Positions 30,203 through 45,677 of a stretch of DNA of 45,677 nucleotides are shown piece by piece. The first letter of the stretch is position 1, and each line of letters starts with the position of its first letter. Source of the stretch: Spirosoma endbachense (lineage in GTDB: Bacteria > Bacteroidota > Bacteroidia > Cytophagales > Spirosomataceae); the NCBI RefSeq assembly GCF_010233585.1, contig NZ_CP045997.1, positions 7,942,186 through 7,987,862 of the forward strand, read 5' to 3'. The notes beneath the pieces are model-generated. The model saw nothing but the letters and a program-made list of their open reading frames with translations. It had not been told where the DNA came from and did not search any database. The position numbers and the translations under genes were made by a program.

Positions 30203-30232
30203 ATATATAGAAAATGCCACTTTTCTATATAT
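30203..30232. promoter_or_regulatory. palindrome 2 upstream of the fic gene
   Basis: ATATATAGAAAA (30203-30214) and TTTTCTATATAT (30221-30232) are perfect 12-bp arms around TGCCAC. It has the same design and A-run as palindrome 1. Confidence 0.5.
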
Positions 30233-30298
30233 ATTCTATTCACTGCGCTTGAGTGAATCTTGTAGAATAGTTGTCGATGTTGCCCTTAAGATATTCAA

Positions 30299-30517: not shown

Positions 30518-30699
30518 CGCTCAGCAGTGCGGTACTTACCGGCTGTTTGTACCCGCAATCAACGGTTTACGGCTTGACGATGGTGGGTGTTTTAGAAAGC
30601 TGTCTGCGAACAAACCTACTACTGCCAATTTAACTACCAATCCTGAATAAAGAACTTTTAATCTCACCTCGCCAAGCCAATGATAACGGCGATCGATTT

Positions 30700-30831
30700 T
30701 TACTTATGTCGCGATAAAGTGGCTAATAACTCGTCCAGGTTTTTCATGGCCATAGCCGTTTCTTCCTGGAAGCCCATTACAAGCATCTTCTCCGATAGGT
30801 GATCATGAGTCAGCAGTTCACAAAGATTAGA
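30700..30831 (-). pseudogene. C-terminal fragment of an unknown protein
   Basis: A 43-codon frame includes LTHDHLSEKMLVMGFQEETA and LDELLATLSRHK, directly after a stop at about 30832. The helical, charged composition looks like real coding sequence, but the frame has no start. It is likely a remnant of a truncated gene. Confidence 0.3.
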
Positions 30832-30866
30832 CTACACTGACCTAGCATACTACTCTTTAGCCAAGC

Positions 30867-31493
30867 TTAAAAATTAAATCCAAAATGAAATCCCGGTTCT
30901 CCGACGATGAATTTAGACCATTTATCATCCAACTGTTTAAATCCATCTGGTAATTCTGTGTGATAAGCACGCTGGGTAATTGCAATGGATGTTTGAATAA
31001 AAAATCTGTCCTTAAAAAGTTTGATGTGATAACCTATACGGTAAGTATTGAAAATCTGAAATCCATTGTCAATTTTTTTGCCGTCATCATTCACAAAAAT
31101 TTGCCAGGTAGGCATTACATTAAGTTCGGCATATAAACCTTTCCACAAAAATCGTTGGTAAGCCACTGATAGGCCGTACTCACGAACGTATCCCGGAAAT
31201 TTTTCTTCCTGCTTTCCGTATGATTTGTTAAAAATTGGGTGAATACCATTCGGCCAAGCATACTTCCAAGTTTTTGGTTCTAATGTGATTACATCTTTTC
31301 CTGTAATACGATACCCAAAATTGAGTTGAGCGAAGTTGGGGGGATTTGTAGTAGCCAAATTGCCCAATAAAAATATAGTACTGCCAACAAACCACCGATT
31401 GTACGTACTGTCTTGCTTTTTATATTGTGCACTCACCTGCAAACTACTTGTCAATACTACGCCAAGTCCAATCCATAAAATTTTCTTTTGCAT
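30867..31493 (-). CDS. exported beta-barrel-like protein (paralogue A)
   Basis: The frame opens at 31526, but the ATG at 31493 begins a signal peptide (QKKILWIGLGVVLTSSLQ) and gives 208 residues. The body shares with the gene at 31754: YNRWFVGSTIFLLGN / YRRWFVGSSFYMLGN, QLNFGYRIT / QLNVGYRIT, and end motifs WSKFIVGEPGFHFGFNF / WNNYFIQPGLDFGFKF. The last Phe and strand pattern indicate an outer-membrane barrel. Its promoter block matches that of the paralogue (see 31524 and 32407). Confidence 0.65.
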   Translation of the reverse strand: MQKKILWIGLGVVLTSSLQVSAQYKKQDSTYNRWFVGSTIFLLGNLATTNPPNFAQLNFGYRITGKDVITLEPKTWKYAWPNGIHPIFNKSYGKQEEKFPGYVREYGLSVAYQRFLWKGLYAELNVMPTWQIFVNDDGKKIDNGFQIFNTYRIGYHIKLFKDRFFIQTSIAITQRAYHTELPDGFKQLDDKWSKFIVGEPGFHFGFNF

Positions 31494-31523
31494 ATCTGTT
31501 TTAATTGGTATTAAACGATAAGG

Positions 31524-31572
31524 CAAAAGTAGATTGAGGGATTACCCAATCTCGTTCACTTAAGTTAAGAAA
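31524..31572 (-). promoter_or_regulatory. promoter and upstream block of barrel paralogue A
   Basis: Minus strand: a -7-like box TACTTTTG (31531-31524), which fits TAnnTTTG, and a 22-bp block at 31551-31572. The block matches the one before the second paralogue at 21 of 22 positions, with exactly the same 27-bp offset to the box. Confidence 0.6.
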
Positions 31573-31680
31573 GAATTTACTGTTTACTTTTTTCAAGAGT
31601 TCTGGCTTTTAGTCTGCTTGAGATTTACACCTAAGAAACTTGCCAAGAATTTGACTGCCTTTGGGTATTGGTTTAGGAAA

Positions 31681-31708
31681 CCTCCTGAAGTTACAAAACT
31701 TCAGGAGG
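31681..31708 (-). terminator. 12-bp-arm hairpin after barrel paralogue B
   Basis: CCTCCTGAAGTT (31681-31692) pairs exactly with AACTTCAGGAGG (31697-31708), followed on the minus strand by TTTCC. It lies 45 bp after the stop of the gene ending at 31754. Confidence 0.6.
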
Positions 31709-31753
31709 TCCATATTTAATTCAAACAACTGCTTTCATCTAGTCATTGTAGTT

Positions 31754-32377
31754 TTAAAACTTAAATCCAAAATCAAGTCCAGGTTGAATAAAGTAGTTAT
31801 TCCATTTTTGTTCCACTGCTTTAAATGATTCTGGAACATTAGTTCTTACAGGCCAATAACTAATGCCAATAGCTGGTTCAAAAAAGAATCGGTCTTTAAA
31901 AAACTTAAACTGGTAACCTAAATAGAAGTCCAGATATAACGTATATCCATTACCAATCTTTTTATTGTTCTCGTCCATATATTTTTCAAACACATTCAAT
32001 GCATAAACGGATGTGTAGGCTCCTTTCCACCAAAACCGCTGATAGCCTACTGTAGGTGCCAGAATGCGTGCATGTCCAGGATAGTTTAGTCCCGGTGCAT
32101 CAAATGATGGTCCAAAAGGGATACCTAGTGGCCAGGAATAAATAGATCTTTTAAATCTAAAGGAAACGACATCTTTCGGGGTTATCCTGTATCCAACATT
32201 TAATTGTACGTACTCAGGTCGATTTGGATCATCGGGAATAAAATTTCCTAACATATAGAATGAACTCCCAACGAACCAACGTCTATACGAACTGTCTGTT
32301 TTAGCGTGTTGTGCTTTGAGTTGGAACGTACCTGTCAGTAATAAGACCAAACCGATGAAGAAAATCTTCTTTTGCAT
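31754..32377 (-). CDS. exported beta-barrel-like protein (paralogue B)
   Basis: This 207-residue protein has a signal peptide (QKKIFFIGLVLLLTGTFQ). It is a tandem paralogue of the gene at 30867-31493, with matching strands (RWFVGSSFYMLGN, QLNVGYRITPKDVVSFR, YQRFWWKGAYTSVYALNVF). It ends in a strand closing with Phe. It is probably an outer-membrane barrel. It has its own promoter, so the pair is not one simple operon. The Crp-type regulator gene lies 84 bp upstream on the same strand. Confidence 0.65.
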   Translation of the reverse strand: MQKKIFFIGLVLLLTGTFQLKAQHAKTDSSYRRWFVGSSFYMLGNFIPDDPNRPEYVQLNVGYRITPKDVVSFRFKRSIYSWPLGIPFGPSFDAPGLNYPGHARILAPTVGYQRFWWKGAYTSVYALNVFEKYMDENNKKIGNGYTLYLDFYLGYQFKFFKDRFFFEPAIGISYWPVRTNVPESFKAVEQKWNNYFIQPGLDFGFKF

Positions 32378-32406
32378 TTCTTTTGCTGTTACGTGAAACG
32401 ATACGG

Positions 32407-32455
32407 CAAAAGTGGGTCGGCGAAATGCCGTAACTCGTTCACTTTAGTTAAGAAA
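32407..32455 (-). promoter_or_regulatory. promoter and upstream block of barrel paralogue B
   Basis: CACTTTTG box (32414-32407) and the 22-bp block at 32434-32455, which matches the block at 31551-31572 at 21 of 22 positions at the same distance. The box starts 30 bp before the start codon, against 31 bp for paralogue A. Confidence 0.6.
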
Positions 32456-32461
32456 TGAACC

Positions 32462-33043
32462 TTACCCCTTATCTTTCTCTGTAATTCTGGCTCTTAATCT
32501 GCTTAATGACTGGGGTTTGATACCTAAATAGCTCGCTAACTGATGCTGAGGCACACGCTGAAGTAGGTCCGGTCTTTTTTGGATTAAGTTCAGGTAGCGT
32601 TGCTCAGGGGAAGAATTCTTAAACTCGTCAAAGTCTATTCGCTGTTTAGCTAACAATTCTTCTGCCAGTAGTTTACACATTATGTCAAACTTTGGAAATT
32701 TACTGTTTATTTCTACTTCCATTTCAGCATTGGAAACTAAAAGAATACTGTCTTCTACACAACTTACATAATAGTCGGAGGGAGTTTTGCTGGTCACACA
32801 AGGAGGTGTCAATGCGTCCATTTCGGTGTAGAAAGCAGTCGTTTTTTCATCACCCTCTACCACATAATAGGTCCGAATACAGCCCTTTAGAACAAAGTAG
32901 CTTTCGTTCGATCGTTGTCCTGCCTTGAGTAAAGTCGTCCCTTTCTTTAGGGAGAAGAATATGTCCAACGAAACGATTACGTTCTTCTCTTCTTCGGTCA
33001 GCGAAATGTATTTTGAGATAAAGTCAAATAGAATATTCTTCAT
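32462..33043 (-). CDS. Crp/Fnr-family transcriptional regulator
   Basis: The ATG at 33043 (MKNILFDFISKYISL) gives 193 residues; the longer frame start is unlikely. It has a cyclic-nucleotide-binding-like beta roll (about 25-110, LKKGTTLLKAGQRSNESYFV) and a C-terminal helix-turn-helix (RVPQHQLASYLGIKPQSLSR). The Crp/Fnr-like family in Bacteroidota often controls a nearby target. The two barrel genes downstream share a 22-bp block that is a good candidate operator. Confidence 0.88.
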   Translation of the reverse strand: MKNILFDFISKYISLTEEEKNVIVSLDIFFSLKKGTTLLKAGQRSNESYFVLKGCIRTYYVVEGDEKTTAFYTEMDALTPPCVTSKTPSDYYVSCVEDSILLVSNAEMEVEINSKFPKFDIMCKLLAEELLAKQRIDFDEFKNSSPEQRYLNLIQKRPDLLQRVPQHQLASYLGIKPQSLSRLRARITEKDKG

Positions 33044-33403
33044 TGATTTGTTGTTATTCGTGTCGTTTGCTACACTTGCCACTACCAAAGCACGATCCGA
33101 TTTTACGCCGAAGCGCGAACGGGTGGCCCGTGCGGCTCAAACGCAGTGTCGACTGAAGCCTGGAAATGCAAACCAAACTTGCTTAACTGAGACGTTTGGC
33201 TTGTATGCCGAAACGGGGCATACAAGCAATTTCCTGGACTCTTCACCAACCTATTATTGCAGGCAAGTTACTAAATCAAAAACTGCTCTAACATAATGAG
33301 GAATAGTTGATTGATCAAGAAAAGGCTAATCGTAGACGTAATAGTAATCCAGCGATTTATGAGATTCAGCAACGGCTAGTTTCAATGTTACTCAGCTTAT
33401 TTG
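33044..33403. other. intergenic stretch with a hairpin
   Basis: 360 bp with no gene. GCTTGTATGCC (33199-33209) and GGCATACAAGC (33217-33227) form an 11-bp hairpin with a 7-base loop. It may be a terminator for plus-strand reading or a remnant. Confidence 0.4.
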
Positions 33404-33568
33404 CTATTTCTTCTTGAGCATATCCTGGATCAGCTCTTCAAGCCGGGCCACTTTGACTTGCTGCTCTTCCAACTCAGTAACTCTCGCGTTTAAGGCCTGA
33501 TTCGTTCGCTCTTGCTCGATACTGTATAAAGGGGTAGTTAACACATTTAGGGTATATCCGCCACGTAA
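33404..33568 (-). pseudogene. C-terminal coiled-coil fragment of a larger protein
   Basis: The minus-strand frame reads LYSIEQERTNQALNARVTEL, EEQQVKVARLEELIQDML and KKK-stop. This coiled-coil end is common in long tail-fibre-like or T9-secreted proteins of Bacteroidota. It has no start and is cut off just beyond the 38-bp inverted repeat, which it partly overlaps. It is the truncated remnant of a longer gene, cut by the element at 33531-34744. Confidence 0.5.
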
Positions 33569-33773
33569 CGACTATAGCTACTTAAATATCAAATAGTTAC
33601 CAAAAGTTATTCCTTATATTGAGGCAGATGCTATCAAATCCTAGCTCGGTAGTTTCAACCAAGCGTATTTTCTCGCTATTTATTCCGTAAAAACCCTTGT
33701 TTTAGGGGGTGTCCTTGAAAGAATCCACCCGGGGGCACTACATTAGTTCAACTTGTCAAAACTCTATCAAGCC

Positions 33774-34358
33774 ATGCGATCTTCTCTGCTCTTTGTTGCC
33801 CCTTTTTTTGCTCTGCTCCTTGGCCTGGGTGCCTGCGGCTCAAAGGATTCTCCCCCTCCGGTTGAAAACCCCATTACCCAGTACCTGGATGCCGACACTA
33901 CCCTCAAACGGGCTGCTTATGGTCCAAATGCAATTGAGTTTGGCCTTGTGTTTAGTGCTACGGTCGACGGAAAACTAACGGAAGTGGGTTGCGAAATGCC
34001 CGATCCCGGTTCGTACCGGGTTAGTGTCTGGGACAACCAGACCAAGGCACTACTGCGGCAGAAAACCATTGAGCAGTCGTCGCCCGGAAAACTAACGATG
34101 AGCAGCATCGACGCCCTTGCCCTAACGGCCAATAAAAAATACATCATAAGTATCAATAGCCAGTCGGGGGGAGTGAACAGGAAGTATCATTCCGTGATAA
34201 AAAAGGCAGGGGGCGAATTTATTCCCTTTACGAAAGGGAGTATTCTGGTGTATAACACCAGTTACCGGACTACCGCGATGGCCGTTTTTCCCGATGAAAT
34301 CAATAACCTCAAGCAAGTCGTGTACGGCTATCCAGAATTCACGTTTGTAAAAGACTAA
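33774..34358 (+). CDS. DUF4082-like lipoprotein, cargo of the inverted-repeat segment
   Basis: The ATG at 33774 (MRSSLLFVAPFFALLLG) gives 194 residues with a lipobox ending LGAC (the longer TTG start is unlikely). After a Pro-rich linker (SPPPVENP), the body has YGPNAIEFGLVFSATVDGKL and GSYRVSVWDNQTKALL, the strands of a DUF4082-type beta-sandwich. The C-terminus is YGYPEFTFVKD. It is probably a surface or periplasmic binding module. It is the only gene between the 38-bp inverted ends. Confidence 0.6.
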   Translation: MRSSLLFVAPFFALLLGLGACGSKDSPPPVENPITQYLDADTTLKRAAYGPNAIEFGLVFSATVDGKLTEVGCEMPDPGSYRVSVWDNQTKALLRQKTIEQSSPGKLTMSSIDALALTANKKYIISINSQSGGVNRKYHSVIKKAGGEFIPFTKGSILVYNTSYRTTAMAVFPDEINNLKQVVYGYPEFTFVKD

Positions 34359-34706
34359 ACCCGTTGAAAGCGTTAAAGGCAGTACGACGGGGTCGCTGAC
34401 ACAGTTGGGTATATCCGCCATCAAAGCATGTTAACAGGCTATGCACTAGGATCTTGCCGAAAAATGTATGCATTTAACGTTCGTATTCAACAGTTAAAAA
34501 TTTTGCTGTTTATGGACGTGTAAAAGCATCATAATTATATGCCTTTAAGGCCAAAAATACCCTTCAAGGCAAACCCATTGCGAAAGGCATCTTTGGAAGT
34601 GAAATTGAGTCGTTTTGTAAGCCATTTAGCCAAAAGGGTGAAATTCCCCTTAAGTACAGATAGTTAAATCTGTATAACCATTTGATTGTTAGTTAATTAT
34701 AGGCTT
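34359..34706. other. gap inside the inverted-repeat segment
   Basis: 348 bp after the lipoprotein gene, with no gene. It contains the internal end copy at 34389-34420 and an AT-rich stretch leading to the right end. Confidence 0.4.
34389..34420. repeat. internal copy of the element end
   Basis: It runs GGGGTCGCTGACACAG then TTGGGTATATCCGCCA. The last 13-14 bases are identical to the 38-bp ends at 33531 and 34744, and the first 16 are related. It has the same orientation as the left end. It suggests nested or older insertions. Confidence 0.45.
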
Positions 34707-34744
34707 TACGTGGCGGATATACCCTAAATGTGTTAACTACCCCA

Positions 34745-34989
34745 CTCTAGAACCTGGCGACTCGATTGACTTACCGCCTAACAGTTTGCATACATTTACC
34801 AATGCAGGGGATGGGCCTTGCCGCTGGCTGAACGTACATAGCCCGAAGGGGTTTTTAACCTTTTTTGAAACGTTTGGCGTAGATTCTAATCAGGAAGATG
34901 CCTTCCAGAAATCGGTGGATGGCCAGCTCATTGCCGATGTCCTGCGGCAAGCAGCCAGTTATGATATGCATATTCAACTTCCCCAGTAG
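34745..34989 (+). pseudogene. truncated cupin-domain protein
   Basis: The plus-strand frame LEPGDSIDLPPNSLHTFTNA continues to WLNVHSPKGFLTFFETFG and ends HIQLPQ. This is the second half of a cupin barrel (the P-P-N-x-x-H motif is visible), with no start of its own. The first half is missing at the edge of the 38-bp repeat. The repeat-bounded segment probably replaced it. A full-length cupin lies at 36190. Confidence 0.6.
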
Positions 34990-35058
34990 CCCTGATCGGC
35001 TAACGTCAGCTCCACGCTGCTTTTTTTCTAACCTCGTTCCCAAAAACCACTGATTCGC

Positions 35059-35280
35059 ATGAAACGTATTCTTTTCCTCCTAACAACGATTTTGGTCTTG
35101 TCAATCGCGGGCAAGCCTGTTCAGGCACAACCAGAAACACTTACCTCCACTTTTTCTGCTAAATTAACCACGAATGGGAGCTGGACAGGCTTTTGGACCT
35201 GGGATCCGGCGAAACGGGTATGGTATTGGACGTGGGTTTGGATACCCTCTTCGCCTTATTCGGGTTACTCCGTCGGCTAG
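35059..35280 (+). CDS. 73-residue secreted tryptophan-rich peptide
   Basis: A signal peptide (MKRILFLLTTILVLSIAG, cleavage likely after VQA) is followed by about 49 residues. The end is very Trp-rich: GSWTGFWTWDP then VWYWTWVWIPSS, seven Trp in about 20 residues. It ends YSGYSVG. No family is recognised. It could be a membrane-active peptide, a beta-structured surface protein or a remnant. A hairpin lies just after the stop. Confidence 0.5.
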   Translation: MKRILFLLTTILVLSIAGKPVQAQPETLTSTFSAKLTTNGSWTGFWTWDPAKRVWYWTWVWIPSSPYSGYSVG

Positions 35281-35295
35281 CCCTCTTCGCTCCTC

Positions 35296-35346
35296 CTTCC
35301 CCCTCAGGCCCCTGCTCTCTATACGGGCAGAAGCTTGAGGGGGAAG
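35296..35346. terminator. hairpin after the Trp-rich gene
   Basis: CTTCCCCCTCA (35296-35306) and TGAGGGGGAAG (35336-35346) are perfect 11-bp arms with a 29-base loop. It is probably the terminator of the 35059-35280 gene, though no long T-run follows. Confidence 0.4.
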
Positions 35347-35522
35347 CATTCCCGAATAACAGGTTGCCTTTCGGCACCCCTACTTTGGACCTGTAACCGG
35401 TAGCCATCGTCAAACCAGCAAGAAGTTAATTCGGCTGGGTGTTCCAGCGATTGGCCCATAGATCAGTATGTCTGGCTGGTCGACAGCTATGCTTTATCGA
35501 AAACTAGTTCACTTAACAAGTC

Positions 35523-36110
35523 ATGGACATGGACACGAATCGATTGCTCACCGAATTACAAGCTAGACATGACTTCCCAGCCGGGCAATTTCCTCAATTT
35601 CTGGCCTTATTTGACCCCCTTTATATCCAGAAAAACCAAATCGTTTTTCTAGCGGGCGACATCGTGTCCTACGCCTATTTTATTGTTAAAGGCTGCCTGC
35701 GCCAGTATTATGTCAACGCCGAGGGTGTTGAGAACACCATCTATTTTGCCGAAGAAGGCGGGTGGACTGGGGAAATGAGCAGTTTTATCCACCGGGTACC
35801 CACCACCATGAACTTACAGGCCCTGGAAGATTCCCAGGCCCTGGTGCTTACACGAACTAACTGGGAACTGGCTACCCGAACCTTTCCTGATTATGCCCTC
35901 TACCAGATTAAAAACCGGGCGCGGAACATTACCCGCTTGAAGGAGCAGATTGGCCACGCTCAAACCGATACCCCCGATCAGAAGTACCGCCGGTTGCTGA
36001 CCGAAAAGCCGCATCTCCTCCAGCGATTGGCCCAGTACCAGATCGCTAACTATCTGGGCGTAACCCCGGAAACCTATAGTCGCATCCGAAAACGGAATAC
36101 GCCCCTCTAA
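35523..36110 (+). CDS. Crp/Fnr-family transcriptional regulator
   Basis: This 195-residue protein has a cNMP-binding-like roll (about 30-115, IQKNQIVFLAGDIVSYAYFI, GCLRQYYVNAEGVENTIYFA) and a C-terminal helix-turn-helix (RLAQYQIANYLGVTPETYSR). It is followed 79 bp later by a cupin gene. A Crp-type regulator plus a small cupin is a frequent pair, so the cupin may be a target. It resembles the regulator at 32462 only at the family level. Confidence 0.88.
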   Translation: MDMDTNRLLTELQARHDFPAGQFPQFLALFDPLYIQKNQIVFLAGDIVSYAYFIVKGCLRQYYVNAEGVENTIYFAEEGGWTGEMSSFIHRVPTTMNLQALEDSQALVLTRTNWELATRTFPDYALYQIKNRARNITRLKEQIGHAQTDTPDQKYRRLLTEKPHLLQRLAQYQIANYLGVTPETYSRIRKRNTPL

Positions 36111-36189
36111 TACAATCTTGATTTAAATCAAGATTTGTGCGCTTAGCCCCTGCTTACTTTGCGAGCGTACTTTTTACCAACTCAATACC

Positions 36190-36624
36190 ATGCAACATAC
36201 CGAAATCATCCGGCTAGGTGCCGGTCTGGAAATCCATATCCTGCTGGATACCCTCGATACCAACCGACAGTTTACCCTCTTCAAGGTCATTGTGGAGCCA
36301 GCCGCCAAAGTGCCCGCTGCCCACTATCATGATCAGTTTGATGAGACTATTTACGGACTCAAAGGCCTGCTGACGCTGACAATAGATGGCAAAACCATCG
36401 AGCTGGCGCCGGGGGAATGTTGTTTTGTTCCCAAAGGAGCAGTCCATCGTTTTGAGAATAAGACTGCCGAGTCGGTCGAGCTGCTGGCGTACGCTCAGTC
36501 GGGTGTATTTGGAGCTACCTATTTTCGGGAACTGGCGGAAGTGATCAATGTGGGCGGTCCCCCGGATGCAGGTAAGCTGAAAGCCATCATGCTCAGTTAT
36601 GGTTTAGTGCCCGTGTCAGGCTAA
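36190..36624 (+). CDS. cupin-domain protein
   Basis: This 144-residue single-domain cupin has motif 1 with metal ligands His-x-His and Glu (AAHYHDQFDETIYGLKG) and motif 2 (GECCFVPKGAVHRFEN). The product is cytoplasmic. Small cupins of this type act as isomerases, dioxygenases or ligand sensors. The specific activity cannot be told. It lies between the Crp-type regulator and the cyclodipeptide synthase gene, but 370 bp separate it from the latter. Confidence 0.8.
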   Translation: MQHTEIIRLGAGLEIHILLDTLDTNRQFTLFKVIVEPAAKVPAAHYHDQFDETIYGLKGLLTLTIDGKTIELAPGECCFVPKGAVHRFENKTAESVELLAYAQSGVFGATYFRELAEVINVGGPPDAGKLKAIMLSYGLVPVSG

Positions 36625-36997
36625 TTGCTTGTCGCCTATTCACCAGTTCTGATTAAGATGATGGGCAGAACTAAAGCTTTAGAATGGTCCAGGCCTGGAC
36701 CTGACAACACCCGTGATCACTAGCTTGCAAAGCCGACTGCCCTAATCCGGGTCTGGTTTCCCAGGTCGGCTTATCGTCCATTCCTAAGGGATGGACCGGG
36801 ACAAGTATCCAGGGGTTGATTGATCCCTATAGCCCAAGTCCGTTAACCCGCAAGGTAGTGCTGGTATCCAATGCGACCGATGCGCACCTGGTTTCCAGTG
36901 ACATTACCCGTGCCGGTCGATTCTCAGTATCAGAACGCCACAATTACCAAACTCTTTACTGCCAACGCCCTGCAGAACAATTGACTCAATTTATACT
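36625..36997. other. intergenic region upstream of the cyclodipeptide synthase
   Basis: 373 bp. It holds a 16-bp perfect palindrome, GGTCCAGGCCTGGACC (36686-36701), and an inverted pair AAGCCGAC / GTCGGCTT (about 36729-36771). A possible hairpin (GTCCATTCC/GGGATGGAC) lies at 36777-36797. A short plus-strand frame (36816-37001) and another with FTANALQNN end near the synthase start, possibly remnants of a lost gene. Confidence 0.4.
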
Positions 36998-37810
36998 ATG
37001 AATTCATTCCGTCGTTCACCCAATCCGACTGCCAACATGCCCAATCGATCCTTCCTCAATGTAGAACCGTTCGTATATACACACGAGGGTCCCGAAGGCA
37101 TTGAAGGTAAGCTTCGAATTTTACCAGTAAATCATAGCCGTGCCTTACGAACCGGACTCGACCTATTGACTCAGCGACCGCTTGCCCTGTTAGGCATTAG
37201 TCCCGGTAATGGCTTCTTTAACCAAAAGCGAATCGAAATCGGCATTTGTGGCATGGCTCACCTATTTGGGGAAGTCACTATTGTGATTCCAGACTCAATT
37301 GCCACGCATACCTTTAGGGCACTGGGATACGGTGAGGAGAAAGTTCGAGCTAAAGCAAGGACGGAAGGCCAGAAGATTAGGAATCGATGCCTACGCGCTG
37401 TTGAACGCGCTCAGCTGTTAAATCCGTCGGCCAGGCTGCGAATTCTTGACTGGGAAAGTGACATTGCTTCACTACCAGGCTATTGGAATGCCTACGCCCA
37501 GGTTTGTAAGCTCTTTGATACCAATAATCAATTCCAGCAAGATGTACTCGACAAGGGTTTCTCCTTGCTCCGGGGGAAACTTAGTGCAGACGCTATCACA
37601 CCCGCTACGGTTCGCGAATGCGTCGAGTATCTCCTGAAAGAGTTTGCCTACTTCAAGCTTTGTCGTGTGGCCTGCGGTCGTGATCTGATTATGCCCTATC
37701 ATCAAGACGCTGCTTTAGCCCATGGTTTTTGTGATGGTCGCTATCAGGAGCCACTGCCGGGTGTGGGTTGGCTGATTTATGACATCGAACTCTTCGGCGA
37801 ATCGGAGTAA
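36998..37810 (+). CDS. tRNA-dependent cyclodipeptide synthase (NYH type)
   Basis: This 270-residue cytoplasmic enzyme joins two aminoacyl-tRNAs into a cyclic dipeptide (2,5-diketopiperazine). The active-site features of the AlbC family are visible. Catalytic Ser68 and Asn71 lie in LLGISPGNGFFN (AlbC Ser37 and Asn40). Tyr211 and Glu215 lie in EYLLKEFAYF (Tyr178 and Glu182). Tyr234-His235 lies in MPYHQD (Tyr202-His203). Asn71, Tyr234 and His235 place it in the NYH subfamily. A run of basic residues (KVRAKARTEGQKIRNRCLR, 115-133) fits the tRNA-binding helix. The start at 36998 or at 37037 (257 residues) is possible. The amino-acid pair cannot be told from motifs alone. An Fe(II) oxygenase follows. 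Confidence 0.9.
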   Translation: MNSFRRSPNPTANMPNRSFLNVEPFVYTHEGPEGIEGKLRILPVNHSRALRTGLDLLTQRPLALLGISPGNGFFNQKRIEIGICGMAHLFGEVTIVIPDSIATHTFRALGYGEEKVRAKARTEGQKIRNRCLRAVERAQLLNPSARLRILDWESDIASLPGYWNAYAQVCKLFDTNNQFQQDVLDKGFSLLRGKLSADAITPATVRECVEYLLKEFAYFKLCRVACGRDLIMPYHQDAALAHGFCDGRYQEPLPGVGWLIYDIELFGESE

Positions 37811-37941
37811 CTGGGTTTGCTGCAACCGAGCCAATGGTTAGTCACGCTTGAGTAGCCATTCAGGCAATCCTGTTGTACTTACACAATTAATTCAATCCAG
37901 GTACCTTATCGAATTTTGAGTTTTATTCAAACTAATCTTAT

Positions 37942-39141
37942 ATGCAAACCGAACTAACCAAGGAGTACGAAAACTGGGATTTCAGCGCCCGCCAACAAAG
38001 CCAGTTGAATTGGTACGCTGAAACGGATGCCCCTACTGGTATTCCAGTCATTGACCTGGCCATCCTGCGCGGTGCCGCTGGGTCGGCCCAACGGCAACAA
38101 GCTTTAGACGCCTTGCGCGGAGCCATCACAGAATCCGGCTTTTTTTATGTGAAAAATTTTGGTATTTCTGAAGATGAGATTGAGGTTATTTCAAACGCCA
38201 CTCGTAGTTTCTTTGGCCAACCCGAGGAGTACAAGCAAGCCTTCAATCGGTATAAGCAAATCCGGGGCTATACCGGCTACCGATTTGAGAGCACTGCCAG
38301 ATTATTCGGCACCGGCCAGGGAAAAGACCTGTGTATGAAATATACGATGGGTCCCGAATTGTCGCCCGAAGAAGTGTTAGAGCGCATAACGTCGGAGGAG
38401 GATATTGCCTCAAACGCCTACTCACCTAATATCTTCCCCGACGCCGAATTTAGAAGGATCTGGGTTCATTATTACCAACGGGTACATCACACCTCTCTCG
38501 AGTTGCTGGAGGCCATGGGGGAGGCACTGAATCTTTCTGCTGAGAGCCGAAGTGTGCTGAGTGAGGCGCTTATCGAAAAAAGTTGCGGAGAGCTCAGATT
38601 TTTCCAATATCCGGATGTGCCCCTTCATGCGTGTGCTGATGTACCAGGAAATGGTATTGATCGAATGGCGGCCCATTTTGATATTGATGTTATTACCCTG
38701 CTACATCAAACTCCCTCTGAAAATGGGTTTATCAGTCTGGAAGCTAAGATTGGGGAAGACTTCGTTAAAATACCGGCAATCCGCGGTACACTGATAGTCA
38801 ATCTGGGTGAAGTGATCCGATTGCTGACGGGCAACCTCATTAAGGCAACGGTCCATCGGGTAGTGCGCCCGCCCCAGCGTCAGCATTTAGGAAGTGCTCG
38901 GGACGTTATAGTCTTTTTTCAGGCCCCTCCCCTCAATGCACGGCTGCGGCCCATCTGGGTTGAAGAGGGTGTTGTTGGGCGGGATACAATCTTCGATGAG
39001 CTTTATCAGCAGGCCGGCGAGCTTGGCTATGTAACCTTCGCTAAACTACGCTCCCGCATGTTCGCCGAATTTATTCAACATATGGAGGTAGCTGACGCCA
39101 GACATGAGGCTGATGCCCATCTGTTTTCGGAAATAAAGTAG
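37942..39141 (+). CDS. 2OG-Fe(II)/IPNS-like oxygenase, likely diketopiperazine tailoring
   Basis: This 399-residue soluble protein has an N-terminal DIOX_N domain (about 33-130, GIPVIDLAILRG, ESGFFYVKNFGISEDEIEVI). The double-stranded beta-helix core has iron ligands His245 and Asp247 (AAHFDIDVITLL) and His305 (ATVHRVVR). The Arg that binds the 2-oxoglutarate carboxylate is kept (Arg320), but the RxS motif reads RDV, so co-substrate binding may differ. It lies 131 bp after the cyclodipeptide synthase on the same strand. Similar enzymes tailor bicyclomycin. The expected role is hydroxylation, desaturation or ring closure of the diketopiperazine. Confidence 0.82.
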   Translation: MQTELTKEYENWDFSARQQSQLNWYAETDAPTGIPVIDLAILRGAAGSAQRQQALDALRGAITESGFFYVKNFGISEDEIEVISNATRSFFGQPEEYKQAFNRYKQIRGYTGYRFESTARLFGTGQGKDLCMKYTMGPELSPEEVLERITSEEDIASNAYSPNIFPDAEFRRIWVHYYQRVHHTSLELLEAMGEALNLSAESRSVLSEALIEKSCGELRFFQYPDVPLHACADVPGNGIDRMAAHFDIDVITLLHQTPSENGFISLEAKIGEDFVKIPAIRGTLIVNLGEVIRLLTGNLIKATVHRVVRPPQRQHLGSARDVIVFFQAPPLNARLRPIWVEEGVVGRDTIFDELYQQAGELGYVTFAKLRSRMFAEFIQHMEVADARHEADAHLFSEIK

Positions 39142-39484
39142 GGACTACGTCACTTAATACGAAACAAGGAATCTATCAACTGGTGGTGCGGCAGGTGGAA
39201 ATCTCCAAGAGCCCAAAAAACAACCACTTTCAGTTCAAAGAGCCGGTTTTACCCTGAAGTAGCTTAACAAAATCTCGTCAAACAATACTAGTATTTTGTA
39301 AGAATATTCCTTTAGAGATACAAATTGTATTAACGGGCGTCGTAGAACTAGTTAAAATTAGCGGAGTGAACTAGTTTCTATTGACAAAGAGTAATTCCGA
39401 TCTCCAACAAAGGACATGGGCAACGTTTTATAGTATTCGTAGTACCGACCGCTAAATTTAATTTGTAGTCCATTTTGTTGATAT
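39142..39484. other. intergenic stretch, nothing clear
   Basis: 343 bp between the oxygenase gene and the convergent small lipoprotein gene. No ORF or strong repeat is seen before the long hairpin at 39500. Confidence 0.4.
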
Positions 39485-39709
39485 TTAGCATCCAACGAAC
39501 AGAGATCCCCCACAGCATGGGAATCCATGCTGTGGGGGATCTCTGATTACATACTTAATCTGAGTTGAATCATAGTAAACAGTGCCATTTACATTATCCA
39601 CTCGTTTCACGAATGCCCCTCCATCGGTGCAATCGGCTGGGATATTCTTTTCACAACCAGAAAGCGAAACGAGTAGCCAAAATGTAAGTAAGAAGTAGAA
39701 GTGCTTCAT
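39485..39709 (-). CDS. small Cys-rich lipoprotein
   Basis: This 74-residue protein has a lipoprotein signal ending LSGC (Cys19). The mature part has further Cys residues (Cys27, Cys65, Cys66, Cys74). It ends HGFPCCGGSLFVGC, encoded across the perfect 21-bp hairpin at 39500-39545. No family is recognised. The hairpin may have been inserted into, and may have altered, the C-terminus. Confidence 0.45.
   Translation of the reverse strand: MKHFYFLLTFWLLVSLSGCEKNIPADCTDGGAFVKRVDNVNGTVYYDSTQIKYVIRDPPQHGFPCCGGSLFVGC
39500..39545. repeat. 21-bp perfect hairpin inside the 3' end of a gene
   Basis: The arms 39500-39520 and 39525-39545 are exact reverse complements around GAAT. It lies within the last 20 codons of the minus-strand lipoprotein gene, just before its stop. 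It could act as a terminator or an mRNA stabiliser. Confidence 0.6.
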
Positions 39710-39844
39710 AAGGGCTGTTGTTTCACACTCACGACACTTTTCAACAACTTAGGTTTGGAATTGCTGTTAAATTTGGAGCAGACAAATACTACTCGTCTCA
39801 GTTGAGAGCCTTTTGTTAGAGTGCTTGGTTTAAAAAAACGAGGA

Positions 39845-39991
39845 TGGCTGTTGCACAACTCTTTTGTGGGCCGGTGAGCTCCTAAACATATCATTAACCT
39901 ACTATTAGCATGGTGTTTTAAAACCCAAGAGTGGCTGATTAGGAGCTGAAATTGTTGATTTTCTTTCTGAATGAGAGTTGTGCAACAGCCA
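39845..39991. repeat. 147-bp inverted-repeat element (MITE-like)
   Basis: 39845-39862 (TGGCTGTTGCACAACTCT) and 39974-39991 are perfect 18-bp inverted ends. The 111-bp interior has no gene. The outer part, GGCTGTTGC, is shared with the elements at 2390 and 3072, but the inner part (ACAACTCT) differs, so it is a related but distinct family. Confidence 0.6.
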
Positions 39992-40100
39992 CGAGGGATT
40001 TGTGAGATTAGAGTTATTACTTTTCCAGACAAATGTTACTTAGATTTTTGTCAAGTAAAAGGTAGCATGTACAGATTTTTCTTTCTGTGTTTTTCATTCA

Positions 40101-40592
40101 TCATTGAATTATATCTAGATTGACAACTTTAACCATTGATACATTTTGAAAGCTTTCCTCGAATCGCCCTAAAAACTTTATTTCAAGTTCGGCTACTAAC
40201 TGGTTGTTGGCAATCTTAATACCTTGGATGGATAAAACATCAACAGGTACATGTGAGTCGTTGATGTATACCGAATTATCATTAAAATCAGGCTCGGGAT
40301 TAACAGGAAGCATTATCTTGTGCCCGATCATGCCCTTATATAAGTACATTTCGTCTATGGTCCTGTACAATAAACTAAGTGTAGATGAGGGCTGAAAACT
40401 CCAAAATATAGAAAGATGCAATTCTGCCGATTGCTCGTTTCCGCTTGTATCTACGTAATTAATATCTTTAAAGTAAATACTTGCCCGAAACCCATCCATA
40501 GGCTTTCCGTCCTTTGCTGATCTTATTGTATCAGCCCTAACAATCCCTTCTTTAAAAATTACTTTACGTTCAAAATCTAAAATTACTGGCAT
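40101..40592 (-). CDS. 163-residue soluble protein, unknown function
   Basis: The protein opens MPVILDFERKVIFKEGIVRAD, is beta-rich (RASIYFKDINYVD, VAELEIKFLGRFEESFQN) and has no signal peptide or membrane segment. No family is recognised. A perfect 15-bp-arm hairpin lies 17 bp upstream of the start (40609-40653). Confidence 0.5.
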   Translation of the reverse strand: MPVILDFERKVIFKEGIVRADTIRSAKDGKPMDGFRASIYFKDINYVDTSGNEQSAELHLSIFWSFQPSSTLSLLYRTIDEMYLYKGMIGHKIMLPVNPEPDFNDNSVYINDSHVPVDVLSIQGIKIANNQLVAELEIKFLGRFEESFQNVSMVKVVNLDIIQ

Positions 40593-40608
40593 TTGCTGTA
40601 GTGAATGG

Positions 40609-40653
40609 AATCTAGAACGCCGACAGTTTACTTTTCAATCGGCGTTCTAGATT
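40609..40653. repeat. 15-bp perfect hairpin upstream of the 40101 gene
   Basis: AATCTAGAACGCCGA (40609-40623) and TCGGCGTTCTAGATT (40639-40653) are exact reverse complements around a 15-base loop. Its place in the leader allows a terminator for incoming transcription or a regulatory stem. Confidence 0.5.
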
Positions 40654-40709
40654 AGTGGTGTTTTTAAAAGCTAATAATTAACTATGAGCAGCCTACTTCT
40701 CTTTATTCA

Positions 40710-40946
40710 ATGGTTATTTTGTGCCTCATTTCTTTTAAGAGTTTCCTTTTCTGGTTCCTACGGGGCAAATTACCGGCTCCCCGCTACCCGGTGAGCAAAC
40801 AGGTCTTAGTTTCTTATCGTAACTATACCCACAACTGTATGACAGTTGTCAGAGAGGATTTAGTTCGTCTAAAAATTCAGGCAATCAGTGATTTGCCAGA
40901 AGGAAAGGCATCTCACTTTTGGGAGCGTTTGATGAGATTTTTCTAA
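40710..40946 (+). CDS. hypothetical 78-residue protein (uncertain)
   Basis: An ATG-started frame has an aromatic N-terminus (VILCLISFKSFLFWFLRG) and a charged C-terminal half (VREDLVRLKIQAISDLPEGK). No family, signal or clear ribosome site is seen. It may be a small membrane protein or chance. Confidence 0.3.
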   Translation: MVILCLISFKSFLFWFLRGKLPAPRYPVSKQVLVSYRNYTHNCMTVVREDLVRLKIQAISDLPEGKASHFWERLMRFF

Positions 40947-41117
40947 TGGAATAAATTTATGTTGAATCCTTTTGAAACGCTTGGAATCTTCATTTTTTAA
41001 ATCCAAGAAACTGGACATGGGTGCTGTTGGTCAACTCTTAGTTTCTCCCCAGCTCACAAATCGGAAAGGCTGCCCTGCCTAAAGTCCATCCCTGAAAAAC
41101 AGCCAACAAAACACGCT

Positions 41118-42635
41118 CTACTTATGATTAAGTAGCTTCAGGGCAAAGTTCAGCTCGGTGTCCACACCATGAATCAGCTCCTCGATTGACGGCTCAATCC
41201 AATAATCAGGAATGACCCCTCTACCTTTGGTATACGTTACGGCATTAACCGTTTTGGTTAAAGGCACATCAATACGTATATACGTATTGGGCAAGGTTAA
41301 TTTCGTAAAAGACCTCGCCGTGGGGCCTTCCATTGCCCCACCGGTTTCCTCGCCAATAAAGACCGCCCGCTGATTCGACTTTATAAAACTACAGACAACC
41401 GCAGCCATGGAGCCCGAAGCCCCGTTAGCCAGCACCGTCAATTGTCCATTGAAATAGTTCGCTTTAGGTAACTGCTCCAGTAAGAGGGGTGTCCATTGGC
41501 GGTAGTATTCTGGCTTGGGTCGATAGCTGCCGGATGCCGTTTTATAAACGGTCGAATCCGCTACATAGAGTTTTTCCCCGTTCTCTAAATACGTACTTAC
41601 CGGGGGAAGGCCGACATATTTTTTCTCAATGTAATCAAAGTGCCGGTAGGGATTTTTTAATAAGTAAGCAATCAGTTCCTCCCCCGTAGTGTCTCCTCCC
41701 TCGTTATTTCGTAGATCCAAAATCAGGTGAGGTATGTTTTTAACCTTGAGCTCATTAAAAATCGCTTGATACAGCGAATCAAAGTTTTGCTTAAACCGTC
41801 GTCTGTGCCAGCCTAGAAACGAACTAATCTTTAGATATGCTACATCTTCTTTCAAATACGTAAACGTAAGTGGTTTTTCTAGAACCTGCCTCTGTTGATA
41901 AAATGTTCGATACTCGTCTTTGCTCAGACCAGCTACAACTACGGTTTGTTTGGTTGAGGGCTGGTCCGGCAAAATGTACTCCAGACGGAATGATGTGGCT
42001 TCTTCGACAAAAATGGGATACAGTATATCAAACAGATTCTCTTCTTGAGTGGTCGAGTAATCCTCCAGGTGACGAATCTTAAATGTTTGAATATAGCCAT
42101 CGGCCGGGATAGCAGGCAGTAACCGATTTAAAATCTCTTCCATGAGCCGGCCGTTAATCGAAATAAGCTCGGAACCCGCTTTAATGGGTGATGGGATGCT
42201 AGCACTCTTAACAATATAAAACCGCCGATTAATAATCTTGAAGGTAAAGGGGAAACTTTTAACCTTGTTGACAAACTGATTCTTGAAATAGTCAGGCGAA
42301 GGTTTAGCAATCAGATGCTCATCGTTTAGACGCGCACAGCAGAGCGCAATTATTTTATAAAATTCAGTTTCGTCCATCGGCCTATTGAGTAAGGAAAATT
42401 GCTGGTTCAGATACGTATTGATGGTAACCGAATCGGCATAGCGATATAAACTAGGATACGTAGTTTCCAGGGTTTTTCTAAAAATCAAGAAGTCTTCTTG
42501 TAAAGCCTTAGGCAGATATTGTTTGGGGGTAGTATCATCCACGACCACCTTTGTTTGGGCTAGCGTGCTAATGGACAATGCCAGTAGAATAAATAGGCAG
42601 GGAAATTTAACCCCAGCCAAGAAAACGGATTTCAT
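41118..42635 (-). CDS. S41-family peptidase (tail-specific protease type)
   Basis: This 505-residue protein has a signal peptide (about 1-26, CLFILLALSISTLAQ). An N-terminal helical region and a PDZ-like stretch (about 125-170, VKAGSELISINGRLM style, here IKAGSELISINGRLMEEIL) follow. The peptidase core has HLILDLRNNEGGDT, a typical S41 strand. ANGASGSMAAV (about 403-413) has the catalytic-serine position, Ser407/Ser409. FIGEETGGAMEG follows. It cuts unfolded or tagged proteins in the periplasm. A basic catalytic residue is not certain by eye. Confidence 0.85.
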   Translation of the reverse strand: MKSVFLAGVKFPCLFILLALSISTLAQTKVVVDDTTPKQYLPKALQEDFLIFRKTLETTYPSLYRYADSVTINTYLNQQFSLLNRPMDETEFYKIIALCCARLNDEHLIAKPSPDYFKNQFVNKVKSFPFTFKIINRRFYIVKSASIPSPIKAGSELISINGRLMEEILNRLLPAIPADGYIQTFKIRHLEDYSTTQEENLFDILYPIFVEEATSFRLEYILPDQPSTKQTVVVAGLSKDEYRTFYQQRQVLEKPLTFTYLKEDVAYLKISSFLGWHRRRFKQNFDSLYQAIFNELKVKNIPHLILDLRNNEGGDTTGEELIAYLLKNPYRHFDYIEKKYVGLPPVSTYLENGEKLYVADSTVYKTASGSYRPKPEYYRQWTPLLLEQLPKANYFNGQLTVLANGASGSMAAVVCSFIKSNQRAVFIGEETGGAMEGPTARSFTKLTLPNTYIRIDVPLTKTVNAVTYTKGRGVIPDYWIEPSIEELIHGVDTELNFALKLLNHK

Positions 42636-43034
42636 GATTAGTACAAGTAAGTTCAGTAGTAAATGGATTAAAATCGAGCAGGAAACTGACTTACCTCTAA
42701 AAGGTTACCGAATAAATTGGCTTCGGAGGCTACGGATTGAGCTGCGGTGACCGGTCGGAATGTCCCGGCGGGGAACCGCGTACTACCGCCAGAGCGAGAC
42801 CAATGGACAGACATTAAAACCAGCGTTTGTTGAGATTGATCGTCATTTACAAGCAAAGGAGATTGAGGGTCGAAGAAAGACTAACTTTGCACCAGCCAAC
42901 AAATAGTCCATCAAAGAGACTACGTTTACCCGTATGTAGGGCTGAACTACATAGCTTTTGGCTCAATATGTCCGGCCTTTGGCTCACATGAACGTTGAGC
43001 ATCACCTACTTTTATGAACTGATTTAACTAGATC
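42636..43034. other. intergenic stretch before the AraC gene
   Basis: 399 bp between divergent genes. A minus-strand frame at 42668-42856 lacks domain-like features. It should hold the promoters of the peptidase and AraC genes. No clear repeat is seen. Confidence 0.35.
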
Positions 43035-44036
43035 ATGTCCACCGCTCCGTCTACTCAACAAGTCGTTTTTATTGTACCACCTCTTGTCCACGTGTTGGAT
43101 CTGGCAGGACCCGTACAGTTATTTTACGAAGCCATCGAGTACGGAGCCCCCTACCAACTACGCTATTGCTCCTTCCAAAATCAGCTTATCAGTTCAGCGG
43201 GACTGGCTATAGGCCCAGTAGAATCCTTTACCCAACTGCAATTGCAGCCTAGCGATCTACTCGTTATCCCGGGCATGGAGATGGGTTATATCCGGTCGAC
43301 TGCGCTAAAAACAGAGCAAGATTTCTTGACCTGGCTCCGTGAGCAACACCACCAGGGGATAATTATATGCTCCGTTTGTACGGGTGCCTTTTTAGTTGCT
43401 CAGGCTGGCCTACTGGATGGCCGAAAATGTACGACTCACTGGAAACGTTTGGCAGAGTTGCAAACGACGTACCCCCAAGTGATTACTCAGCAGGATCGAT
43501 TGTTTATCCAAGACAGCGGAGTTTATACAAGTGCAGGCGTAACGGCGGGTATTGACATGGCACTGGCGATCTTGGAAGAGCGGCAGGGACCCTTATTTGT
43601 CTCGAAGATAGCCCGTGAATTGGTCGTCTATTTACGCCGTGGTCCCCACCATTCGCAAAAAAGCGTTTACCTCGATTATCGTAATCACATTAACGTGGCT
43701 GTTCACCAGGTTCAGGACTGGCTAATTACTAATCTGCAAACCAGGATCACCTTAGACGAGTTGGCCCAAGTGGCAGGTATGAGTACTCGCAACCTGACCC
43801 GAACGTTTCGAAAAGAAACAGGACTTTCCATTTGTGACTACACCACGCTGCTGCGTCTGGAGCGGGCGCGTACCCTACGACAAAATCCGGGCATGACCCT
43901 AGAGGCCATTGCCGGGCAATGTGGTTTTCAGGATGCACGTCAGCTGCGTCGAATCTGGCAGCAAGACGCATCTAAGAACAGTACCCATCACTTATCTAAA
44001 CTCAATGAACAAATCGATGAAACCCGAATTAAGTAA
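43035..44036 (+). CDS. GlxA-type AraC-family regulator (DJ-1/PfpI + HTH)
   Basis: This 333-residue protein has an N-terminal DJ-1/PfpI-like domain (about 5-185, VVFIVPPLVHVLDLAGPVQL) with the Cys elbow IICSVCTGAFLVAQAG. The C-terminal AraC domain (about 225-320) has two helix-turn-helix units (ITLDELAQVAGMSTRNLTRT, MTLEAIAGQCGFQDARQLRR). It binds DNA and likely senses a small molecule through the first domain. Its 3' end overlaps the start of the next gene by 32 bp, so the two are translationally linked. Confidence 0.9.
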   Translation: MSTAPSTQQVVFIVPPLVHVLDLAGPVQLFYEAIEYGAPYQLRYCSFQNQLISSAGLAIGPVESFTQLQLQPSDLLVIPGMEMGYIRSTALKTEQDFLTWLREQHHQGIIICSVCTGAFLVAQAGLLDGRKCTTHWKRLAELQTTYPQVITQQDRLFIQDSGVYTSAGVTAGIDMALAILEERQGPLFVSKIARELVVYLRRGPHHSQKSVYLDYRNHINVAVHQVQDWLITNLQTRITLDELAQVAGMSTRNLTRTFRKETGLSICDYTTLLRLERARTLRQNPGMTLEAIAGQCGFQDARQLRRIWQQDASKNSTHHLSKLNEQIDETRIK

Positions 44037-45222
44037 GCCGAAGGTTTGCAACAACTATCGCAAGAGTCGGGGCTTTGGCTGTTGGTGGTATGTATGTTTG
44101 GTGATAGTATGTGCGCTTACTCCAGTTGAAGCGGCTTTTTCCTGCACCATATTTGTTCTGACAGATGCGAAACGAACCTTGTTTTTCAATAACGAGGATT
44201 ACTCAAATCCAGCTACTCGTATCTGGTTTCAACCAGCCACCAAGGACTATTATGGCTGTGCCTATCTGGGATTCAATGACGGCTGGGCGCAGGGTGGCGT
44301 CAATCAGTACGGATTGGCTTTTGACTGGGTTGCTGGCGCAAATGAAGCGTACACGCCAGCCTCAAACTTGAAAAGTCTTCAAGGTAACGCGGCCGAGCGA
44401 ATGCTTGAATCCTGTAGAACAGTAAACGACGCCATCACCTTTTACCAACGTTACGCAGAACCCGGATTTGCTTCCGCCAGCATGTTGATTGCCGATAAGA
44501 CGGGGGCTTCGGTAATCATTAGTGCCCAAGATGAACAACTCCATTTTAACCAGTCTCATCAATCCAGAGGCTTCGGGTATGGTAACGAGTCGCTCAAAAA
44601 AATGCTTACCCCAACCCTTAGTCCATCGATCCAAAACGGATTACCCATTCTAAAAGCCTGTCGGCAGGAGGGTATATATGCCACTAAATATTCAAGTGTT
44701 TATGATCTAACCAAGGGCGATATCTCTTTGGTCTCGCTGACCGATAAGGGAGAAAGGGTAACCTTAAATTTACCCACAGAGCTAAAAAAAGGCGGTCATT
44801 ATTATGACATTCCGGCTATTGGCCAGCAGCGCTTACTGCCGCTGATGCCGCTGGTTGCGGGCATGAACCGGTACTTGTGGGAAGGGTACGAACCTTTCCC
44901 GGCGGACGAGCCCGTCACGACCAACTTGGTGCAGGAGGTGATCAAGAAAACTCAGGCTGGTACGCTTCGCCCAGACGATTTTACGCCCGAGTTTTGGAAG
45001 GTACTGGCTCCGATCCAGAAGGATATACAATCCGATTTACGAAGGTTGGGGACTTTGTTATCTGTAAGACTTTTGGAGCGAAAGCAGTCATCGCGCTTAT
45101 ATCTGATGGATTATCAGAACGCCACGGTCCTTCAACGCTTTGAGCTTGATTCACTGAACCGTATTGCTTCGATCAAGTCGGAAGCTGCGGAAATGAAAGT
45201 GAGCGTCGCACGAGAGAAGTAG
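44005..45222 (+). CDS. exported Ntn-hydrolase (choloylglycine-hydrolase-like)
   Basis: The start is the ATG at 44005 or at 44017; an earlier frame start is inside the AraC gene and unlikely. A signal peptide (GCWWYVCLVIVCALTPVEA) leads to AFSCTIF. Cys47 is where Ntn-hydrolases carry their N-terminal nucleophile after processing, followed by FFNNEDYSN and GGVNQYGLAFDWVA. The family cleaves linear amide bonds (bile-acid amides, penicillin V, acyl-homoserine lactones, or related). The substrate is unknown here. It overlaps the GlxA-type regulator, which probably controls it. Confidence 0.75.
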   Translation: MNKSMKPELSKPKVCNNYRKSRGFGCWWYVCLVIVCALTPVEAAFSCTIFVLTDAKRTLFFNNEDYSNPATRIWFQPATKDYYGCAYLGFNDGWAQGGVNQYGLAFDWVAGANEAYTPASNLKSLQGNAAERMLESCRTVNDAITFYQRYAEPGFASASMLIADKTGASVIISAQDEQLHFNQSHQSRGFGYGNESLKKMLTPTLSPSIQNGLPILKACRQEGIYATKYSSVYDLTKGDISLVSLTDKGERVTLNLPTELKKGGHYYDIPAIGQQRLLPLMPLVAGMNRYLWEGYEPFPADEPVTTNLVQEVIKKTQAGTLRPDDFTPEFWKVLAPIQKDIQSDLRRLGTLLSVRLLERKQSSRLYLMDYQNATVLQRFELDSLNRIASIKSEAAEMKVSVAREK

Positions 45223-45614
45223 GAAATCCTGATCAGACAAGCAAGCGGTTTGTGTAGTGTTGGGCCTACCAGTAATTCTTGTGTGGCCATTGGTAAGAAG
45301 TAGAGCATCGCGTAGTCAAGCATGGGCTAGTTATGGTTCGACCTCCCCTACGTCAATGCTTCTGCACTTTTGGTTGTAAAGTAGGTGAACTGGCTGTGGT
45401 GACCTTTATCAGTTGACAGGTTGATGAATGTATGAGTCTTTTTAAACGCCCCATTTATGAAGCAGATACATAATAAAACCATCATATTACTTTGAGGGCG
45501 TCTAACAGACATTCTCTAACGGTTGGAATTACACAATGAGTAGGTCAGGGGAGACTGCTCGCTAAACTGTGTCACAGGTGAATGAAAGGAGTAAAACCTC
45601 TAACTTTCACTATC
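45223..45614. other. intergenic region leading into an IS256-type element
   Basis: 392 bp without a gene. The part from about 45550 (with CTAAACTGTGTCAC) is probably the left end of the transposon whose transposase starts at 45615. The inverted end cannot be checked because its partner is outside the window. Confidence 0.4.
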
Positions 45615-45677
45615 ATGACTAACGAGTTCGATTTTGAAGCCTTTAAACAGGCAGCCATCAAAGGCCTTTATGAAGGC
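45615..45677 (+). CDS. IS256-type transposase, 5' end only
   Basis: The 21 visible codons begin MTNEFDFEAFKQAAIKGLYE. The pattern 'FDF..FK..A...L..G' is how many IS256-family (Mutator-type) transposases start. The gene runs past the window edge, so the family call rests on the N-terminus only. Confidence 0.5.
   Translation, partial: MTNEFDFEAFKQAAIKGLYEG

Follow-up and report, generated by a model that had tools for sequence, protein, structure and literature searches.

A cyclodipeptide synthase gene and an adjoining Fe(II) oxygenase gene as a putative two-enzyme pathway in Spirosoma endbachense

Two adjacent genes of Spirosoma endbachense probably form a self-contained two-enzyme pathway, in which a cyclodipeptide synthase (CDPS) would build a diketopiperazine ring and an Fe(II) oxygenase would tailor it. 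The genes lie in a window of 45,677 nucleotides (the whole stretch of DNA analyzed, positions 7,942,186 to 7,987,862 of the 10.3-Mb single-contig genome, NZ_CP045997.1). An earlier note, made from these letters alone, had proposed an NYH-type synthase and a 2-oxoglutarate (2OG)-Fe(II) oxygenase that together make an oxidized diketopiperazine, a reading that proved mostly right, and both open reading frames (ORFs) were found where it had placed them.

36998..37810, + strand: CDPS with the NYH residue set, 270 amino acids (aa), assigned by Pfam/NCBIfam scores, alignment, and structure
37811..37941, + strand: intergenic gap between CDPS and oxygenase, 131 bp
37942..39141, + strand: DIOX_N/2OG-Fe(II) oxygenase, deacetoxycephalosporin C synthase-like, 399 aa, assigned by Pfam scores, alignment, and structure

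The first protein scored well above the cutoffs of PF16715 (E = 2.9e-24; 86.5 bits against 27) and TIGR04539 (E = 1.1e-34; 119.9 bits against 45). When it was aligned to AlbC, the catalytic places read out by the earlier note were all present, with S68 corresponding to S37, N71 to N40, Y211 to Y178, E215 to E182, Y234 to Y202, and H235 to H203. In AlbC, Ser37, Tyr178, Glu182, and Tyr202 are the catalytic residues and Asn40, Tyr202, and His203 the NYH set; the Ser/Tyr/Glu/Tyr of the family is present here as S68, Y211, E215, and Y234. The protein has the CDPS fold, and a structure search returned as its best match YvmC, a cyclo(Leu-Leu) enzyme. Its N terminus carries approximately 30 residues more than that of AlbC ahead of the catalytic Ser, the initial 22 being poorly predicted. 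By family score, residues, and fold the protein belongs within the CDPSs, and the alignment outside them that the earlier note had named as counterevidence did not occur.

The NYH residues N71, Y234, and H235 are all found in the window CDPS; across the 24 rows of its clade they are kept in 18 and departed from in 6. An unrooted tree of 39 rows was examined, from which P0012, P0084, P0085 (fragments), and P0093 had been dropped and in which P0091 and P0092 were never included. In this tree the clade (81/91), 15 references with NYH residues (81/57), and three rows on the XYP side (92/91; the XYP-side labels are our own) formed three separate sides, and the clade and the NYH references, on a tree with long branches, were joined only under midpoint rooting. 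The NYH label thus appears to stand on the residues of the window enzyme, the unrooted tree suggesting only a separate branch.

The second protein exceeded the cutoffs of PF14226 (E = 7e-20) and PF03171 (E = 3.3e-11), and the observations on both proteins are far above chance. The iron site proposed earlier, H245-x-D247 with H305, aligned with the corresponding three ligands (His, Asp, and His) of deacetoxycephalosporin C synthase, which was also the nearest solved sequence (phmmer E = 2.7e-33); family scores and His-x-Asp...His motif together place the protein in the 2OG-Fe(II) superfamily. Its own family was defined as 34 hits, P0015 to P0048, among them P0044 from an alphaproteobacterial metagenome-assembled genome (MAG), with P0049 (37% identity) and weaker hits placed outside. 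The oxygenase profile, A3, was built without P0045 and P0046, whose iron Asp is lost, and also without P0024, P0030, P0031, P0033, P0039, P0040, P0042, P0047, and P0048. P0045 and P0046 (51 to 53% identity) have in addition lost the co-substrate Arg and the segment at approximately 117 to 130 in window numbering and are probably noncatalytic copies.

The pairing of the two genes is conserved in relatives from two phyla, a point that the earlier note had put forward for checking. A genome collection was scanned with the oxygenase profile by way of two 8-residue patterns, a scan liable to miss any relative without such patterns as well as records close to the genome of the window; it gave 75 stretches, 2 of them encoding relatives. 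In both, the oxygenase gene lies directly behind a CDPS gene whose product scores above the Pfam cutoff, and with the window this holds for three of three DNA-verified oxygenase loci. The two genes are 9 bp apart in Chitinophaga sp. CF418, and their reading frames overlap by 11 bp in a Polyangiaceae MAG. ORFs of at least 70 aa from positions 27000 to 45677 of the window were compared with loci L002, L003, and L019. The syntenic matches were the CDPS and the oxygenase (plus an antisense ORF inside the latter), the remaining matches being regulator-like ORFs at different places, and no third syntenic gene common to the DNA-verified loci was found. A large ORF behind the Chitinophaga pair (L002, 11094 to 13052, + strand) had no Pfam or NCBIfam match. 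Across six pairs, CDPS and oxygenase protein distances correlated at 0.76, a value matched by 2 of 720 relabelings (the true one included), three of the six pairs being assigned only through same-sized source contigs.

The CDPS is rare, with a single match in its own genome. Two strong matches and one weak partial match were identified in 222 genomes of the host's family, and the weak one (G040; E = 3.1e-4; query residues 166 to 236) was not counted as a CDPS. PF16715 was present in 1 of 395 Bacteroidota genomes, that of S. endbachense itself, and a profile of the clade's CDPSs matched 1 of 344 Chitinophaga-family genomes and 1 of 183 genomes of the Polyangiaceae order, both already known. Some oxygenase match was found in 207 of the 222 family genomes; among the matches listed, identity beyond the window gene was at most 36%, with E values of 7.4e-25 or weaker. 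The DNA of the pair was matched in 2 of 36 congeners, with S. aerolatum matched only over the CDPS part. As presence is sporadic across phyla, this distribution points to horizontal transfer of the cassette, which may move as a unit between distant bacteria. Among 72,556 plasmid records no close CDPS was found, only places in Streptomyces and Legionella at 25 to 30% identity, and no vehicle for such transfer was found in these records. No cassette-free insertion site could be lined up among congeners, because matches to the upstream regulator-like protein are distant and multiple (29 in the genome itself; distant matches in 34 of 35 other congeners, at most 36% identical among the matches listed) and the gene at 40101 to 40592 was matched in none of the 35.

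Substrate pocket positions were taken from PMC5816076. Pocket P1 consists of L64, G66, V96, P98, L150, Y218, F219, and M232 (LGVPLYFM) and pocket P2 of K186, S189, L190, G193, Q236, A238, and A239 (KSLGQAA). P1 agrees at five of its eight positions with each of two Trp motifs, LGVPLLLA and LGIPLFFV, and likewise at five with the Phe motif LGVVLFFT. In all 24 clade rows the fourth P1 place is Pro, a residue that also occurs there in one Trp set and in Pro-, Leu-, and Cys-type motifs; the fifth place of these last three types, however, is Trp or Ser. From these residues it is suggested, with modest confidence, that the amino acid held in P1 is aromatic, and the product is probably a cyclic dipeptide in which one or both side chains are aromatic. 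The first P2 residue is Lys in 20 clade rows, Gln in 3, and Thr in 1. The second amino acid is not predictable, as none of the 32 tabulated P2 motifs starts with Lys, and prediction of the product from pocket motifs was abandoned past "probably aromatic." The motif table spans about a third of the CDPSs characterized by then.

By the route of AlbC, the CDPS would take a first aminoacyl-tRNA and park its aminoacyl group on Ser68 in P1, accept a second aminoacyl group from P2, and cyclize the dipeptidyl-enzyme to a 2,5-diketopiperazine. The adjoining oxygenase, with 2OG as its probable co-substrate, would then oxidize this ring compound by side-chain C-H hydroxylation or desaturation, and we infer an oxidized diketopiperazine as the product of the cassette.

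Several observations weigh against this pathway. The CDPS-bearing congener S. aerolatum lacks an oxygenase of this family, its best match reaching 31%, so that the CDPS does not require this partner; its CDPS gene has a different neighbor.

L019 9291..10154, - strand: CDPS of S. aerolatum
L019 7724..9220, - strand: FAD_binding_4 protein (Pfam), 498 aa, 70 bp behind the CDPS gene

The 131-bp gap of the window is wider than the spacing in both DNA-verified relatives. Pairing in the protein database, scored as a CDPS and an oxygenase listed on same-sized source contigs and informative for positives only, gave a partner to 4 of 14 CDPS hits (the window's own included) and to 0 of 8 further clade CDPSs, in a test that misses true pairs. 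The 10 unpaired hits comprise 6 on contigs shorter than 2 kb, that of S. aerolatum, and P0011, P0013, and P0014. P0078, one of the further eight, is the Polyangiaceae CDPS after the first residue and is truly oxygenase linked, yet it is listed on a contig of 37,032 bases and its oxygenase, P0034, on one of 26,410; as this true pair differs in listed contig size, unmatched pairs were not counted as absence. The tree places the clade no nearer to the NYH than to the XYP side, the P1 motif is tied between Phe and Trp, and a Lys-first motif is absent from the 32 P2 motifs of the published table. In the oxygenase, the Arg-x-Ser motif is replaced by R320-D321-V322, with the Arg retained; Arg-x-Ser is the usual 2OG motif of this oxygenase branch.

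The different neighbor in S. aerolatum, the wide gap, and the lack of a contig-size partner for most clade CDPSs would suit a working CDPS whose oxygenase neighbor has another substrate and is merely co-inherited. We consider this improbable: all three DNA-verified oxygenase loci, from two phyla, have a CDPS gene immediately ahead of the oxygenase and share no further syntenic gene, the Polyangiaceae frames overlap, and the neighbor in S. aerolatum is likewise an oxidase-type protein. The altered co-substrate motif raises another reading, in which the oxygenase is independent of 2OG, draws on another electron source as do isopenicillin N synthase and ACC oxidase, and either closes a ring oxidatively in the diketopiperazine or desaturates it. 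Arg-Asp-Val is found in 31 of the 34 family hits, all of which were tallied (Cys-Asp-Val in 2; 1 cut short); the corresponding residues are Arg-Thr-Ser in deacetoxycephalosporin C synthase, as they are in the outlying P0049. Isopenicillin N synthase and ACC oxidase also keep the Ser, and losing it therefore does not mark an enzyme as independent of 2OG; with the Arg retained and 2OG enzymes as the nearest sequence relatives, this reading has little likelihood.

It also seems quite unlikely that the locus is an ordinary variant of the pulcherrimin- or mycocyclosin-type pathways whose CDPS yields a simple homodimer such as cyclo(Leu-Leu) or cyclo(Tyr-Tyr). Two observations would fit such a product: YvmC is the best structural match, and the cyclodityrosine model NF052540 is weakly matched (50.7 bits; cutoff, 300). 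However, LGVPLYFM/KSLGQAA is unlike the pockets of YvmC (LGLAFFFL/MAAGRWK) and Rv2275 (VGVTMLFN/LRFTQLP), and no P450 gene, nor any MFS gene, is present among the nine ORFs surveyed in this region (33753 to 45222). A more speculative and rather doubtful elaboration is that a separate CDPS lineage, whose novel second-substrate pocket has Lys at the place of AlbC Met152, makes an aromatic diketopiperazine on which an expandase-like oxygenase with a remodeled co-substrate site performs a reaction not known for diketopiperazines (desaturation, ring closure, or ring expansion), and for which a phenol-oxidizing flavoprotein substitutes in S. aerolatum by acting on a tyrosyl side chain.

The solved entry that best matched that flavoprotein is named only "Oxidoreductase" (E = 2.3e-34). 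Among named solved structures, the nearest relatives of the flavoprotein are enzymes of the p-cresol methylhydroxylase, vanillyl-alcohol oxidase, and eugenol oxidase types, the similarity covering chiefly the N-terminal region. Near the C terminus of the flavoprotein, a second and weakly matching segment pairs Y451-R452 with a Tyr-Arg of the "Oxidoreductase" entry, in which Tyr occupies the place of Gln74. Such Tyr and Arg residues bind phenolate in vanillyl-alcohol oxidase, and such enzymes oxidize para-alkylphenols; the type would fit a tyrosyl side chain in the product. Within the S. endbachense genome this S. aerolatum protein is matched only weakly (E = 2.5e-5). As a single locus the partner exchange is a lead and not proof, and the same synthase beside an oxygenase or beside a vanillyl-alcohol oxidase-type flavoprotein offers a natural comparison.

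Around the proposed two-enzyme pathway, the window contains the following neighbors.

35523..36110, + strand: cyclic-nucleotide-binding-domain protein, regulator-like, upstream (Pfam)
36190..36624, + strand: Cupin_2 protein, upstream (Pfam)
40101..40592, - strand: 163-aa protein with no Pfam match

The cupin and the regulator were rejected as cassette members, as the flanking regions of L002, L003, and L019 contain no equivalent of either; the Cupin_2 gene is probably outside the cassette, and the cyclic-nucleotide-binding protein is possible as a local regulator only. No box of the TAnnTTTG consensus was found in the 131-bp gap, and no RNA families at gathering score and no tRNA genes were found in the window. 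The GC content is 0.496 for the CDPS gene and 0.502 for the oxygenase gene, against 0.453 for the window. Elsewhere in the window, a gene for a phage-integrase-family recombinase (12139 to 13122, + strand) lies near a rise in GC content along the window from approximately 0.38-0.40 to 0.50, a SusD/TonB-receptor/FecR set with a glucuronyl-esterase-type protein (19306 to 27399, - strand) is probably a polysaccharide-use locus, and a Fic-domain protein with SoFic-like adenylyltransferase domains is encoded at 29008 to 30243 (- strand).

CDPSs in Bacteroidota and CDPS-oxygenase loci are already known. CDPSs have been recorded in six bacterial phyla, Bacteroidetes with one gene, together with five types of alpha-ketoglutarate oxygenase near CDPSs (PMC4159871); tailoring classes are listed in PMC11610984, and a CDPS cluster is among those of Kordia (PMC7477175). 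In Burkholderia sp. 383 and P. fluorescens, 2OG oxygenases adjoin CDPSs, and side-chain hydroxylation has been suggested (PMC2922099), and CDPS neighbors include 2OG-Fe(II) oxygenases and FAD-linked oxidases (PMC5767969). The earlier view that a two-gene form is little described in this phylum is refined by these reports (PMC4159871, PMC2922099, PMC5767969). No description of the pair itself was found among the titles and abstracts listed, subscription papers being mostly outside their scope. The clade, its pocket, the oxygenase type, and the partner exchange were likewise not found in print, in mostly nonsubscription literature, where vanillyl-alcohol oxidase appeared in CDPS work only in PMC11760959, for flavin chemistry alone. 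NYH enzymes were 71.8% actinobacterial, 19.1% from Firmicutes, and 8.5% proteobacterial, leaving less than 1% of those known in 2017 elsewhere (PMC5816076); the Porphyromonas gingivalis CDPS in the PDB (9gun) lacks the NYH set in our alignment.

Compared with known systems, the Burkholderia and P. fluorescens loci resemble the window in having a CDPS beside an oxygenase, and the Burkholderia operon with a single oxygenase differs in its siderophore import and export pumps (PMC5767969). No Burkholderia proteins or contigs were found in the oxygenase searches, most hits of which were unnamed; the Burkholderia and P. fluorescens oxygenases were not aligned. The bicyclomycin locus, which the earlier note had named as an example of oxygenase tailoring, comprises bcmA, five 2OG oxygenases, a P450, and an MFS gene (PMC5930311). 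The likeness holds for a CDPS with Fe(II) oxygenase tailoring and fails beyond it, as the window has one oxygenase gene, whose product is nearest in sequence to deacetoxycephalosporin C synthase; the Bcm oxygenase entries 8XHY, 8XHP, 8XHQ, 8XHT, and 8XHX (PMC12089406) did not appear in the two sets of PDB sequence matches, of 56 and 59 distinct entries. The AlbC/YvmC-type NYH enzymes share the fold and the catalytic S-N-Y-E-Y-H set of the window CDPS, whereas its clade forms a separate branch with a P2 motif, K-S-[LV]-x-Q, absent from the published table; identity to outside CDPSs is 26 to 33% among the matches listed beyond P0086 (30%). Deacetoxycephalosporin C synthase (expandase) has the same Fe ligands and the same R-G-[FY]-T-G...E-S-T-A segment as the window oxygenase, which differs in its identity of approximately 31% over the structural alignment, in Arg-Asp-Val for Arg-x-Ser, in an insert before residue 161, and in neighboring a CDPS. 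The two genes, in approximately 2.1 kb, would make a very small complete pathway with a product not predictable from the published CDPS pocket motifs, and identification of that product would extend the CDPS pocket code and reveal how an expandase-like oxygenase acts on a diketopiperazine.
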